From Wenyingzhuangia gilva (GTDB lineage: Bacteria > Bacteroidota > Bacteroidia > Flavobacteriales > Flavobacteriaceae), in assembly GCF_030519655.1 (NCBI RefSeq), contig NZ_JAUMIT010000001.1:1054001-1118000 (forward strand): 64,000 bases of DNA, written 5' to 3'. The notes below the pieces were generated by a model, which was not told where the DNA came from, made no database searches, and worked only from the letters and a program-made list of their open reading frames with translations. This document shows, piece by piece, positions 21,231 through 26,217 of this stretch. How positions within the stretch are numbered: position 1 is the first letter of the stretch; each line of letters starts with the position of its first letter. Both the position numbers and the translations under genes were made by a program.

Positions 21231-21262
21231 AAAAAGCTCAACAGATTCTGTTGGGCTTTTTT
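21231..21262 (+). terminator. Terminator after gpmI
   Basis: AAAAAGCTCAACAG / CTGTTGGGCTTTTT (one G-U pair), ATT loop, T run; begins 24 bases after the stop codon. Confidence 0.88.
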
Positions 21263-21382
21263 GGTTTTAAAATTATCTTAATCAATTCTAAAATAGCACA
21301 ATTTATCAGAAGCTAGCATATCTTATATTTCTTTTTATAATTTTAAAATTAACTGTTATTAGTAATAGATATCATATAATTT

Positions 21383-21784
21383 ATGAAAGAAAAAAAGCCA
21401 GATAATGTTGTTTTTAATACTGAAAACCAAAAATATGATGCTGCATTAAAACCATATGCAACCAATATTGGAGCTCCTGTTATTAAAGCAAATGATAGTG
21501 CTGCTTGGAAAAATAAGAGTATTCGCAAAGTAAATCAAAAAATTCAGGCTAAATATATAGAAATCAAAGAGGAGTACGATAAAATGATGAAAGAGTATGA
21601 GTACAATCATATGATTTTTAATGCAAAATTTAATTTTGAGCCAATTGTTGGAGAAATATATCATTTATATGAAAGAGATAATGGAGAAACTTTCTTATCC
21701 ATCATTGCTCCAAATCAATGTTCTTTTAGTGCTTTAGGAAGTTTTTATTTGAATTCGGATTTGGTTTGGCAAAAAAAAGAATAG
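21383..21784 (+). CDS. DUF2452 family protein
   Basis: 133-residue protein resembling the DUF2452 family of Flavobacteriia (function unknown). Characteristic stretches: KPYATNIGAPVIKANDSAAW, a central charged helix (KIQAKYIEIKEEYDKMMKEY), and NFEPIVGEIYHLY followed by ETFLSIIAPNQCSF. No signal peptide or membrane segment. The C-terminal part looks like a small beta domain that could bind a ligand. It starts the photolyase block on the same strand and is followed four bases later by the remnant of another small gene. The family call is from memory of the motif. Confidence 0.75.
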   Translation: MKEKKPDNVVFNTENQKYDAALKPYATNIGAPVIKANDSAAWKNKSIRKVNQKIQAKYIEIKEEYDKMMKEYEYNHMIFNAKFNFEPIVGEIYHLYERDNGETFLSIIAPNQCSFSALGSFYLNSDLVWQKKE

Positions 21785-21788
21785 GGGA

Positions 21789-21979
21789 ATGAAAAGACCA
21801 AAAGCTTATACAAAAGATGTTATTAAATTGATGAGGTTAACTTTAGAAGTTAGGGAAAAAGAATAGTATATAAAGGGTGTGAGTCTAAACATCTAAAAAA
21901 GTGAAGTCCTGAGGTCATAAGATTTAAATGCAAAGAGCAAAAATCCATTACAGGAAACAAAATTAAGAAGCGTTTATGA
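21789..21979 (+). pseudogene. Remnant of a DUF2805/TIGR03643-type small protein
   Basis: Two fragments in different frames resemble the C-terminal half of the DUF2805 (TIGR03643) family found beside photolyase genes. The first, from the ATG at 21789, reads MKRPKAYTKDVIKLMRLTLE and stops at 21866. The second, in another frame, reads CESKHLKK, a TGA at 21902-21904, then SPEVIRFKCKEQKSITGNK followed by IKKRL. The family's KH-K-R, RFKC and GNKISKR segments are recognisable, with TGA where an Arg codon is expected. The N-terminal region (normally containing MAWEDRTPF-like sequence) is absent. The 3' end overlaps the start of the next gene, as in a formerly coupled pair. Confidence 0.6.
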
Positions 21980-23094
21980 AACCAATGTTAGAACAAGAAT
22001 TTCATCAGTTTCCCACGCAATTTGATGAAATTATAAATAGAGTTACAGCTATAGATCCTGTTGCTTATGGAAAATCAAGAAATTACATTGATGGAGCCGT
22101 TTCTTACTTGTCTCCTTATATTTCTCGTGGTGTAATTTCTACGCACTATGTTTTCAAAGAAGTTTTAAAAAGAGGACATAAACCTTGGACTGTACAAAAG
22201 TTTATTCAAGAATTGGCATGGAGAGATTATTGGCAGCAAGTTTGGATTCATAAAAAAAAGCAAATCAATTCAGATTTAAAAAATGAACAAGTTAACGTTT
22301 CTAATAAGCAAATTCCTAAAGCTATTGTAAATGCTAAAACTGGTATTTTGGCTATAGATAAAGCAATAGAAAATTTTTATGAGACAGGATATATTCATAA
22401 TCATGTAAGAATGTATTTGGCTTCAATAGCATGTAATATTGGCCAAAGTTATTGGAAAGTACCAGCACAATGGATGTATTACCATTTGTTAGATGCAGAC
22501 TGGGCAAGTAACGCACTTAGTTGGCAATGGGTGGTAGGTGCCAATAGCAATAAAAAATATTACACAAATCAAGAAAATATAAATAAATACTGTCACACTT
22601 ATCAAGAAAATACTTTTTTAGATGTTCCGTATAATGCTTTTCCATTACTTGAAATTCCAAAAATTTTAGCGGAAGTTGATGAGTTAAAATTAAAAACCTC
22701 CTTGCCATTGAAACAATCTATTGTTATAAATAATGGTTTGCCTTTTTTGATGTATAACTTTTACAACTTAGATCCACTTTGGAAAAATGATATAGAAGCT
22801 AATAGAATTTTACTTTTGGAGCCCTCGCACTTTGAAGCGTATCCTGTAAGTAAAAAAACAATAGATTTTGTTTTAAACCTTTCTAAAAATATTCAGAATA
22901 TTCAAATATTTGTTGGTGAGTTTAGCGAATTTGTTGCTGAGTATGGTCCTAAAAAGATATACTATAAAGAGCATCCCTTAAATGAACATTACCATGGTGT
23001 TGAAGAACAAAGAGATTGGATGTTTAGTGTAAAAGGCTATTATCCTTCTTTTTTTAGTTTTTGGAAAAAATGTCAAAAAGAAATGCCATTTTGA
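21976..23094 (+). CDS. Photolyase/cryptochrome FAD-domain protein without the usual N-terminal domain
   Basis: 372 residues. The first ~220 form a PHR/CRY FAD-binding domain: SYLSPYISRGVIS, FIQELAWRDYWQQVW, TGILAIDKAIENFYETG, YIHNHVRMYLAS, and DADWASNALSWQWVVG, with the conserved Asp and Trp around the flavin. The N-terminal alpha/beta antenna domain is missing. Instead, residues ~255-372 form a different alpha/beta-looking domain (ANRILLLEPSHFEAYPVSKK, NIQIFVGEFSEFV, KIYYKEHPLNEHYHG, GYYPSFFSFWKKCQK) that I cannot assign. Similar proteins occur in other Flavobacteriia. Its end overlaps the next photolyase gene. DNA repair or photoreception is possible; substrate unknown. Confidence 0.82.
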   Translation: MKPMLEQEFHQFPTQFDEIINRVTAIDPVAYGKSRNYIDGAVSYLSPYISRGVISTHYVFKEVLKRGHKPWTVQKFIQELAWRDYWQQVWIHKKKQINSDLKNEQVNVSNKQIPKAIVNAKTGILAIDKAIENFYETGYIHNHVRMYLASIACNIGQSYWKVPAQWMYYHLLDADWASNALSWQWVVGANSNKKYYTNQENINKYCHTYQENTFLDVPYNAFPLLEIPKILAEVDELKLKTSLPLKQSIVINNGLPFLMYNFYNLDPLWKNDIEANRILLLEPSHFEAYPVSKKTIDFVLNLSKNIQNIQIFVGEFSEFVAEYGPKKIYYKEHPLNEHYHGVEEQRDWMFSVKGYYPSFFSFWKKCQKEMPF

Positions 23095-24546
23095 GTAAAG
23101 AATCTATCAATATTGTTTGGTTAAAGCGTGATTTGCGTTTGCAAGATCATGCACCTTTGTATAAAGCAGAAGAAAGTAGGTTGTCTTATATCATTATTTT
23201 TTTATTTGAACCTTCATTCATTCAATATCCAGATACAAGTCTTAGGCATTTACAATTTGTGTATCATTCAATAAAATCTCTAAACAAGAGATTAAAACCT
23301 TTTAATAGAAAAGTGAACTGTTTTTATGGTGAAGCTTTGGATGTATTTCAATTCTTAATCACACATTATCAAATTCAAAATCTATTTAGTTACCAAGAAA
23401 GTGGTATTAAACAAACGTGGATACGAGATAAAGTAGTTCGAAAATTTTGTCAATCGAATCATATTGTTTGGCAAGAATTTCAAAAAGATGGAGTACTTCG
23501 AGGCATCAAAAATAGAGATAATTGGAATAGATTATGGCATCAAAAAATGCATCAACCTATTCTTCACAATAAATACACAAAGGGAATAATTACAATTCCA
23601 AATCATCATTTTAATTTGCCTTTAAAACTCGAAAATCAATTAAAAGAATATCCAAAACAATATCAACCTGCAGGAGAAGAAAATGCATGGAGGTATTTAA
23701 GTTCTTTTACAAATAATAGAGGTTTTAATTATCAAAAACACATTTCTAAACCAACAGAAAGTAGGATGTCTTGCAGTAGATTGTCTCCTTTTTTAGCATG
23801 GGGAAATATAAGTATTAAACAAGTTTTTCAGTATGTAGGTACACATCCTAATGGAACTAAGAATAGTAAAGCTTTTTCGGCAATGTTAACTAGGTTGCAT
23901 TGGCATTGTCATTTTATACAAAAATTTGAAGTAGCGTGTAGTTATGAAACAATGTGTATTAATAAAGGATACGAATTGTTGTTGCATACTAAAAATAATG
24001 ATTACATAAGAGCATGGCGAACAGGTACCACAGGCTATCCTATTGTTGATGCTTGTATGAGAGCAGTGGAGCACAGGATGGATTAATTTTAGAATGCGTG
24101 CCATGGTTGTGTCTTTTTTGGTGTTTAATTTAGATCAGGATTGGAGGGATGGAGTATATCATTTAGCCAAACAATTTTTAGATTATGAACCAGGAATCCA
24201 TTATCCCCAGTTTCAAATGCAAGCAGGCACCACAGGTATTAATACAATTAGAATTTATAATCCTATTAAAAATTCGGAAGAACACGATCCTAAAGGAATT
24301 TTTATAAAAGAATGGGTACCAGAGTTAAAAAATGTTCCCGAAGCATACATTCACGAACCTTGGAAAATGACAGCCATGGAACAAGTCTTTTGTGGTGTAC
24401 GTATTGGAGAAGATTATCCTTTACCTATTGTTGATTTAAAGGAAAGTTCTAATGCAGCTAGAGATAAAATTTGGGGGCACAGAAAACATTCCATTGTTGT
24501 ACAAGAAAAAAAAAGATTGTTAAAGGTACATGTTAATAAACATTAA
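23070..24546 (+). pseudogene. Photolyase/cryptochrome gene interrupted by a frameshift
   Basis: The 5' part (ATG at 23070) encodes the N-terminal photolyase domain (NIVWLKRDLRLQDHAPLY) and the start of the FAD domain ([37 protein letters not shown]), then stops at 24086. The expected continuation, [15 protein letters not shown]...[17 protein letters not shown], is read in another frame from 24073 to the stop at 24546. Joining the frames restores a protein of about 490 residues. The break lies at the CACA run 24072-24075, where an expected His-Thr codon pair looks two bases short. It is either a recent mutation or a sequencing error; there is no other damage. The TTG at 23061 is rejected in favour of the ATG nine bases later. 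Confidence 0.85.
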
Positions 24547-24558
24547 ATTTTTTGTGTG

Positions 24559-24696
24559 ATGAAAAAAGAACATCTTCCTCAAAAAACTTGTTTGGTTTGC
24601 AAACGTCCGTTTGTATGGCGAAAAAAATGGGAAAAAAACTGGAACGAAGTAAAGTATTGTAGTGAACGTTGCAAAAGAAATAAAACAAAAGTATGA
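24559..24696 (+). CDS. DUF2256 zinc-ribbon-like small protein
   Basis: 45 residues: [20 protein letters not shown], then [20 protein letters not shown] and a short basic tail. This is the DUF2256 pattern: CxxC, the RKKWEKNW motif and YCSxxC, consistent with one zinc site. The family is repeatedly found next to photolyase/cryptochrome genes; function unknown. The gene begins 13 bases after the frameshifted photolyase and its stop overlaps the next start (ATGA), so the two are translationally coupled. Confidence 0.85.
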
Positions 24697-26174
24697 AAAC
24701 GGTAAACCTTATATTTCCAAACCAACTGTTTAAAGAATCTCCTTTTTTAGATACTAAGGAGATTGTTTATTTAGTAGAAGAATTTCTGTTTTTTAAGCAA
24801 TATAAATTCCATAAACAAAAAATTGCATTTCACAGAGCTAGCATGAAAGCTTATGAAACTTTTTTGATATCTAAAGGATTAGAAGTAAAGTATATTGAGG
24901 CCGTAAATAAGCTTTCGGATATTAGAAAATTGATGCCTTTTTTAAAAGAGAAAGGGATTGAGCATATAAACTATATAGATCCTGTTGATGATTGGTTGTT
25001 TAAAAGAATTAAAGAAGGTGCTGCAGAACAACATATTTCTTTAACATGTTATGATACTTTACTGTTTTTAAATACAAATAAAGATCTTGGTTCTTTTTTT
25101 AAAAAGGATAAGAAAAAATATTTTCAAACCACATTCTATAAACAAGAAAGACAACAACGTAATCTTTTAATGGATGTAGAAGGGAATCCGGAAGGAGGAA
25201 AGTGGAGTTATGATGATGAGAATAGAAAAAAATATCCGGCAAAAAAAACACCACCACCCATACAATTTCCAGATGTAGATGAGTATTACAAAGAGGCTAT
25301 TGAATATGTAGAAACTTATTTTTCTGAAAATTTGGGAAGATTGAGTTCACAATCATTATATCCAACTAGTTTTAAAGCAACGGAGCAATGGTTTACTCAG
25401 TTTTTAGAACAACGATTTTTAGAATTTGGTACCTATGAAGACGCTATTGTTGATCAAAGTTCCATTTTACACCACAGTGTGTTGTCTCCCATGCTTAATG
25501 TTGGGCTTATTACTCCTGATATAATTATTAAGCAAAGTTTGGAGTTTGCTAAAAATAATAATATTCCCATAAATTCTACAGAAGGTTTTGTTAGACAAAT
25601 TATAGGATGGAGGGAGTTTGTTAGGGGAGTGTATCATGTTAGTGGACAAAAAGAAAGAACCACTAATTTTTGGGGTTTTAATAAAAAAATCCCTGCTTCT
25701 TTTTACAATGGTACCACAGGTATTTATCCTTTGGATGAAACCATAAAGAAAGTGTTAAACACAGGTTATTGTCATCATATAGAACGTTTAATGGTGTTAG
25801 GTAATTTTATGTTGCTTTGCGAATTTAATCCAGATGATGTTTACCAATGGTTTATGGAGTTGTTTATAGATGCTTATGATTGGGTAATGGTGCCAAATGT
25901 ATATGGAATGAGTCAGTTTGCAGACGGAGGCTTAATGTGCACCAAACCTTATATTAGTGGAAGTAACTACCTCATGAAAATGAGTAATTACAAAAAGGGA
26001 GATTGGCAAAATGTGTGGGATGGTTTGTATTGGAGTTTTATAGATAAACACCGTGACTTTTTAAAACAAAATCCAAGATTAAGAATGATGGTTTCTATGT
26101 TTGATAAAATGGACAAGAGCAAACAAGAAGCACATTTAAAAAATGCTTCACTTTTTTTAGAATCAATAAGATAA
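24693..26174 (+). CDS. PhrB/CryPro-type photolyase-related protein lacking Fe-S cysteines
   Basis: 493-residue member of the deoxyribodipyrimidine photolyase-related (DPRP) group that includes bacterial (6-4) photolyases. The N-terminal DPRP domain reads [15 protein letters not shown] ... [13 protein letters not shown]. The FAD domain shows [30 protein letters not shown] (the His pair typical of (6-4) repair), [18 protein letters not shown] and [17 protein letters not shown]. In characterised members the last segment continues into a cysteine loop binding a 4Fe-4S cluster. Here it reads [17 protein letters not shown], without cysteines and shorter, and the fourth cysteine upstream of the His pair is also absent. 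Ends in a strong hairpin. Confidence 0.85.
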
Positions 26175-26177
26175 GTG

Positions 26178-26217
26178 TTAGAAAACCTTTTAGATCTATT
26201 TCTAAAAGGTTTTCTAA
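26178..26217. terminator. Bidirectional terminator between the photolyase block and the iron block
   Basis: Perfect 17-base arms (TTAGAAAACCTTTTAGA / TCTAAAAGGTTTTCTAA) around TCTATT. It overlaps the stop codon of the minus-strand reductase. Confidence 0.8.

Follow-up and report, generated by a model that had tools for sequence, protein, structure and literature searches.

Photolyases have mostly been studied as lone enzymes. Here we describe a block of six elements, all on the forward strand, at positions 21383-26174 of the window, by which we mean the whole stretch of 64,000 nucleotides analysed from contig NZ_JAUMIT010000001.1 of the flavobacterium Wenyingzhuangia gilva. Three photolyase-family flavoproteins are encoded here next to DUF2452, DUF2805 and DUF2256. 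We refer to the first two flavoproteins as SHORT, in which the flavin adenine dinucleotide (FAD) domain comes first, and PHR, a two-domain protein split over two reading frames; the third is PhrB-like. An original prediction, made from the sequence, had listed six elements on one strand between these limits, and the re-checked coordinates and strands, as well as the Pfam matches, agree with it. The features are as follows.

21231..21261, + strand: terminator-like hairpin of the upstream iPGM gene (14-bp stem and T tail), the left limit of the block
21276..26213, no strand: extra segment relative to the empty site of three genus mates (approximate, limits set by eye)
21383..21784, + strand: DUF2452 protein, 133 amino acids (PF10504, 47 bits); lies near DUF2805 in part of the relatives
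21789..21975, + strand: DUF2805 (TIGR03643) pseudogene with an open start of 25 amino acids and stops thereafter (profile match 1e-14, with stops)
21976..23094, + strand: SHORT, candidate inverted-topology photolyase, 372 amino acids, FAD domain first and alpha/beta domain last (Pfam, alignment, model, structure matches, tree)
23070..24086, + strand: PHR piece A, with the antenna domain and the first part of the FAD domain, from a non-canonical two-domain member of the photolyase family (Pfam, alignment, relatives)
24094..24546, + strand: PHR piece B, remaining FAD domain in a different frame (Pfam, identity to a relative)
24559..24696, + strand: DUF2256 protein, 45 amino acids, CxxC...CxxxC (PF10013, 79 bits)
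24693..26174, + strand: PhrB-like prokaryotic (6-4) photolyase without the Fe-S cysteines, 493 amino acids (DPRP, 191 bits; residue alignment)
26178..26217, no strand: hairpin with a 17-bp stem that separates the PhrB-like gene from the convergent gene after it, the right limit of the block

The DUF2256 stop and the PhrB-like start share an ATGA at 24693-24696, as had been predicted. The 25-base overlap of SHORT and PHR (23070-23094) was predicted as well, but it holds only provided that PHR uses its ATG start; in most relatives PHR starts at the SHORT stop, and here a TTG at 23091 is an equally likely start. A hairpin similar to the one on the left is seen in three genus mates with an empty site (compared by eye), and the hairpin scan detected none between the genes of the block. 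The DUF2805 remnant was recovered in one intergenic frame that matches a profile built from relatives at 1e-14 (three sequences searched) and contains internal stops; it is a genuine pseudogene.

SHORT, a putative inverted photolyase

SHORT matches FAD_binding_7 of Pfam, and its photolyase-type FAD region begins near residue 20 with no antenna domain ahead of it. The AlphaFold model (predicted local distance difference test, pLDDT, of 92.7; 22 sequences) consists of an all-helical FAD domain followed, from about residue 255, by an alpha/beta domain; the FAD domain was thus correctly predicted, but the protein is not limited to it. All 50 matches listed by Foldseek for this model are photolyases or cryptochromes. 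When aligned to the Anacystis photolyase, SHORT keeps E79, W82, N142, M146 and N179, which we take to be the residues of the cyclobutane pyrimidine dimer (CPD) site and which are invariant in 22/22 SHORT rows. These rows form a clade (97/94) in a tree of FAD domains, where their neighbours (100/99) are 'FAD-binding domain' proteins of Ruegeria, Novosphingobium, Asticcacaulis, Peteryoungia and Deinococcus; the tree carries a long-branch warning, and its rows do not include a characterised NewPHL. Two rows labelled CPF2 (L158, L169) fall among PHR owing to a labelling slip, which leaves the placement of SHORT unaffected.

Inverted-order photolyases have been described (PMC9426592), and NewPHLs are single-strand CPD photolyases with inverted topology (PMC13274461). 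SHORT resembles the SPL/NewPHL proteins, although it is not a proven member: the FAD domain comes first and the N-terminal antenna domain is absent, as in these enzymes, whereas the clade and the C-terminal domain are its own. Profile comparisons of the C-terminal domain gave nothing significant, either against antenna domains (best 0.017) or against the C-terminal domains of other inverted proteins. A run shared by eye had made it a candidate for a swapped antenna; this was rejected, as the E value in the pairwise profile comparison was 0.017 and the probability 2.7%. Two Deinococcus relatives have a weak C-terminal match to PF00875 (7e-4 and 1e-3, under the curated cut-off). Note also that alphaproteobacterial 'FAD-binding domain' proteins (L150, L154, L155) adjoin, or lie near, AarF/ABC1/UbiB kinases, like a photolyase cluster of Bacteroidota.

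PHR, a non-canonical two-domain protein

The DNA_photolyase and FAD_binding_7 matches of PHR are divided over two open reading frames, pieces A and B being 67% and 79% identical to an intact relative (L042). A single local frame change near 24067-24071, where the two profile matches meet, accounts for the frameshift that had been predicted; it could be a recent break or a sequencing error. A programmed frameshift was considered but not retained, as each of the ten PHR genes detected next to SHORT in the loci of the family, described below, is a single open frame.

PHR had been called a standard two-domain photolyase. The domain layout fits this description and the profile aligns well to photolyases, but the aligned active site does not: the lesion-pocket Glu, catalytic in the class I CPD and DASH enzymes, is replaced by an Arg that is invariant in 11/11 rows, the Asn beside flavin N5 by His, and one Trp of the triad by Phe, the roles of these three positions being presumed here. 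From this alignment, PHR is probably not a canonical CPD photolyase. The intact relative scores below the NCBIfam cut-offs for class I (169 of 506) and DASH (149 of 317); this is a weak test for PHR, since a 441-amino-acid photolyase on contig C30 of the same genome misses such cut-offs too (329 of 506 and 365 of 885).

The PhrB-like protein and DUF2256

The predicted PhrB-like identity (DPRP, 191 bits) stands, with the correction that all four Fe-S cysteines are absent. In the alignment to Agrobacterium PhrB, Cys350 corresponds to Pro346 and the stretch holding the other three cysteines is missing, so that none of the four that characterise FeS-BCP proteins with their 4Fe-4S cluster is present. 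The protein retains the counterparts of His366, Trp390, Tyr424 and Tyr430, and a Tyr occupies the position of Trp342. Among 68 PhrB homologues taken from the loci, these four residues are kept in all 68, all four cysteines are missing in 58 and all are present in 10. Mutant studies of PhrB show Trp390 to be important for photoreduction and His366, Tyr424 and Tyr430 for repair (PMC4619345). By its PhrB-type domains and the equivalents of His366, Tyr424 and Tyr430, the protein belongs with the prokaryotic (6-4) photolyases. Members of that group free of Fe-S are already described (PMC9178010, PMC4619345); the PhrB-like protein is similar to these (PromaPL, subgroup M) in its PhrB-type domains, repair residues and absent cluster cysteines, and differs from them by the Tyr at the Trp342 electron-carrier position.

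The same division is seen in a family survey of 199 genomes, one per genus. PF04244 scores, with one match per genome, fall into two groups, 68 high and 37 low; checked directly, all four cysteines are present in 8/8 sampled high-scoring proteins and absent from 21/21 sampled low-scoring ones. DUF2256 lies within 8 kb of high-scoring PhrB genes in 63 cases (Fe-S type where checked) and of low-scoring ones in 29 (Fe-S-free where checked). A role of DUF2256 as Fe-S helper was considered and rejected, since it accompanies both score classes at this distance. Fe-S and Fe-S-free PhrB proteins occupy similar neighbourhoods in different genera (L157-L171), with one PhrB per genome.

Gene order and co-occurrence

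Across Bacteroidota the recurring order, with members missing in places, is DUF2452-DUF2805-SHORT-PHR-[flavin reductase]-DUF2256-PhrB. A SHORT homologue at E<=1e-60 occurs in 24 of the 199 genomes, the source genome included; the next matches (E>=2e-20, frames mostly of 420-500 amino acids, few of them inspected) were taken as other photolyases. The other 23 SHORT loci and that of one genus mate were inspected (n=24): 18 were found to carry DUF2256 (once with an internal stop), 15 PhrB (truncated once at a contig end), 10 PHR and 9 DUF2452. DUF2805 stands directly ahead of SHORT in many of these loci, and in several a flavin reductase of about 210 amino acids (PF01613) separates PHR or SHORT from DUF2256. 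A wider set consists of the best 80 of at least 580 confirmed SHORT relatives in genome contigs and leans towards the own family. Its named records are mostly Bacteroidota; two metagenome-assembled genomes labelled Rhodobacteraceae and Gammaproteobacteria may be misbinned. Within 4.5 kb and on the same strand, 69 of these 80 loci have at least one partner family, most often PhrB (41), DUF2256 (39) or DUF2805 (38); four hits are on the opposite strand and two lie farther off. The clustering that had been noticed in one genome therefore extends well beyond it.

In the 199 genomes, DUF2256 occurs in 103, PhrB (PF04244) in 105, DUF2805 in 125 and DUF2452 in 57. DUF2256 and PhrB are together present in 100 genera and together absent from 91, with three having DUF2256 only and five PhrB only (Fisher p=4e-46, a guide only, as the value overstates independence among related genera). 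The two share a contig in 94 genomes and lie within 8 kb of each other in 92 of them, on the same strand in all 92. DUF2805 is present in 105/105 PhrB genomes and in 103/103 DUF2256 genomes; it is not always near, since 70 of 85 DUF2805-PhrB pairs on one contig are within 8 kb. The genomes with SHORT also have PhrB in 22/24 cases, in 20/24 of the low-scoring, Fe-S-free class. Of the 55 genomes with both DUF2452 and DUF2805, 21 have the two no more than 1 kb apart, on the same strand every time. In 14 SHORT-free genera that were inspected and a second locus of G129, many neighbourhoods hold a photolyase of about 430 amino acids, a second member of about 436 amino acids and redox genes. The enzyme classes of the block are already known, and two families, DUF2256 and DUF2805, are bound to the operon by strong co-occurrence. 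We found no tie of either family to photolyases in the open-licence PMC papers that were searched.

Plasmid records reach other phyla. DUF2805, DUF2256 and a PF04244 photolyase are side by side in Acinetobacter piscicola, a PF04244 photolyase is followed by DUF2256 in a Rhizobium, a PHR-class photolyase overlaps DUF2256 in two records of Salinivibrio kushneri, and in Vibrio pelagius a flavin reductase follows a PHR-class photolyase. No photolyase is present in the stretch shown around a Nostoc DUF2805 gene, the remaining genome having stayed outside the search.

These data also bear on a simpler explanation, in which independent repair enzymes were gathered by co-regulation or co-transfer with no joint mechanism, DUF2256 and DUF2805 being passengers. 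Partner sets that differ between loci, and plasmids that carry DUF2256 or DUF2805 without an adjoining photolyase, are what it would lead one to expect; the near-perfect co-occurrence of DUF2256 and PhrB over 199 genera, the presence of DUF2805 in every PhrB genome and an adjacency that recurs in another phylum speak against it, and we consider it unlikely.

DUF2805 and the possibility of light signalling

A structure model of DUF2805 (pLDDT 75.5) predicts a helical protein with a core like a helix-turn-helix (HTH) and a basic tail. Compared with the PDB, the model gave no match at E<=0.001, although several HTH proteins appear among its weak hits listed. Assignment of DUF2805 to a known HTH family was not retained, being a guess only at this pLDDT and without such a match.

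These properties invite a reading of the block as a blue-light signalling module, in which PHR and/or SHORT would be cryptochrome-type receptors and DUF2805 would provide the output. In the alignment PHR no longer has the Glu of the pocket, the Asn at N5 and one Trp of the triad, losses that a non-repair member could show, and genes for CryB and photolyase belong to a light-induced regulon of Pseudomonas (PMC9758184). However, PHR is broken here and, of the best 80 loci, 52 showed none within 4.5 kb of SHORT (contig ends included), SHORT and PhrB retain repair residues, and the HTH-like shape of DUF2805 comes with no PDB match at the above threshold; we hold signalling to be improbable.

Origin and present state of the block

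In three of six genus mates (G001, G002, G004) the iPGM gene and a PepSY/flavodoxin reductase gene are adjacent and convergent, their matches lying 72-76 bp from each other, whereas 5.0 kb separate them in the source genome, where homology to the empty site ends near 21275 and returns near 26214 (by eye). The block is probably an acquired cassette, now eroding, because three of six genus mates have the flanking genes 72-76 bp apart and no block; a gain by transfer accounts for this better than several exact losses would. Of the remaining mates, G003 has 8.7 kb between iPGM and PepSY, G005 has PepSY on the other side and G006 gave no PepSY match. The roughly 8.7 kb of other DNA at the iPGM/PepSY site of G003 (L191, G003:C1:145500-155200) suggests that the site may be an insertion hot spot. 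PhrB occurs in 2/7 genomes of the genus, the copy of G006 being on a different contig with different neighbours. SHORT of G006 is 59% identical to that of the window, compared with 88% for iPGM of G006 and 66% for SHORT in the closest other genera.

Erosion could have gone so far that the cassette is a decaying relic, non-working in this genome. DUF2805 is a pseudogene, the frame of PHR is broken, the flavin reductase lies outside the block, and two further photolyase-family genes are found on contig C30. On the other hand, DUF2452, SHORT, DUF2256 and the PhrB-like gene are open, SHORT and the PhrB-like protein keep conserved residues, and the PHR break is single and local and could be a sequencing error; we therefore give the relic little credence. 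SHORT is split or shortened in two relatives (L060 = G085:C95; L061 = G194:C6), so operon erosion is not unique to the window.

On C30, the gene for the 441-amino-acid photolyase is lined up with genes for phytoene synthase, for lycopene cyclase and for an amine-oxidase-type, desaturase-like protein (L063, G000:C30:155000-168000), which makes another light-related cluster in this genome. A second cluster on the same contig (L064, G000:C30:112000-124000) holds genes for a TetR-type protein, an ABC1 kinase, a flavin reductase, an NmrA-like dehydrogenase, a PHR paralogue, DUF2805, an SDR and an SRPBCC-like protein, the labels of the dehydrogenases and of SRPBCC having been given by eye. Its flavin reductase is the only PF01613 match of the genome. 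With the PHR paralogue, DUF2805 and flavin reductase of C30, intact relatives of the broken or missing parts of the block exist elsewhere in the genome. Photolyases of other genera (L158, L159, L164, L165) are surrounded by much of the same gene set.

Function of the block

Taking these lines together, we consider it likely that the block is a photoreactivation operon for the repair of both CPDs and (6-4) photoproducts with accessory genes, probably acquired between the iPGM and PepSY/flavodoxin reductase genes. In such an operon, SHORT would split cyclobutane dimers, probably, by analogy, in single-stranded DNA, and the PhrB-like enzyme would do without an Fe-S cluster in splitting (6-4) photoproducts. 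Where relatives have a fuller operon, the flavin reductase would supply reduced flavin, DUF2805, possibly a DNA-binding protein, may act in regulation, and the small Cys4 protein DUF2256 may serve in maturation or lesion hand-off. Cotranscription, the substrates and these accessory roles are what we infer; a joint function as a repair unit is likely. The original prediction had proposed a concerted blue-light response or repair pathway in place of three independent repair enzymes. Clustering and co-occurrence support a shared photorepair unit, and two of the three flavoproteins, SHORT and the PhrB-like protein, keep repair residues; the case for all three acting together is weaker in view of the broken PHR and its distribution.

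Several observations weigh against the operon. A sigma-70 promoter scan of the block gave 23 sites against 26.4 in shuffles, no excess, and in the hairpin scan the hairpin on the right resembles a terminator only when read on the - strand. Two of the six elements, DUF2805 and PHR, are broken here, and the block of the source genome has no flavin reductase gene. The association is modular: PHR, flavin reductase and DUF2452 accompany SHORT in only 28, 20 and 6 of the best 80 loci (same distance and strand), and 11 of the 80, some of them near contig ends, have no partner. On plasmids, DUF2805 is on the strand opposite the photolyase in Acinetobacter piscicola, and opposite and about 1.4 kb from the PHR-class photolyase in Vibrio pelagius, and DUF2256 has no adjoining photolyase in three of five regions (Hirschia, Pantoea, Deinococcus radiophilus), the rest of these genomes being unsearched. 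The relatedness of the genera, mentioned above, is to be counted here as well.

Two known systems offer a comparison. The UV-B inducible operon of Synechococcus sp. PCC 7335 is similar to the block in that it has two photolyases in one operon, and differs from it in that the available part of its description mentions no DUF2256, DUF2805 or flavin reductase (PMC9649867). In the LitR regulon of Pseudomonas, phrB, cryB, folE, short-chain dehydrogenase and oxidoreductase genes are light-induced, gene kinds that recall the block; unlike this regulon, the block contains no LitR gene, and the SHORT class is not mentioned for the regulon in the part of the report available (PMC9758184). folE is common to the Pseudomonas light regulon and to a photolyase cluster in which GTP cyclohydrolase I (PF01227) directly follows DUF2805 (L161:6648-7352).

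A more far-reaching version of the photoreactivation operon can be offered tentatively, as a possibility that we favour less. DUF2256, as a small Cys4 protein that works with (6-4) photolyases whether these carry Fe-S or not, and DUF2805, as an HTH-type regulator or DNA-binding partner, might be dedicated to photoreactivation, and SHORT might found a distinct branch of inverted photolyases in Bacteroidota within a transferable repair cassette. Two PhrB subclasses in similar neighbourhoods would make the role of the Fe-S cluster testable by comparison, and the combination of two repair chemistries with a flavin reductase, DUF2256 and DUF2805 in one conserved operon would give both of these families a testable role.

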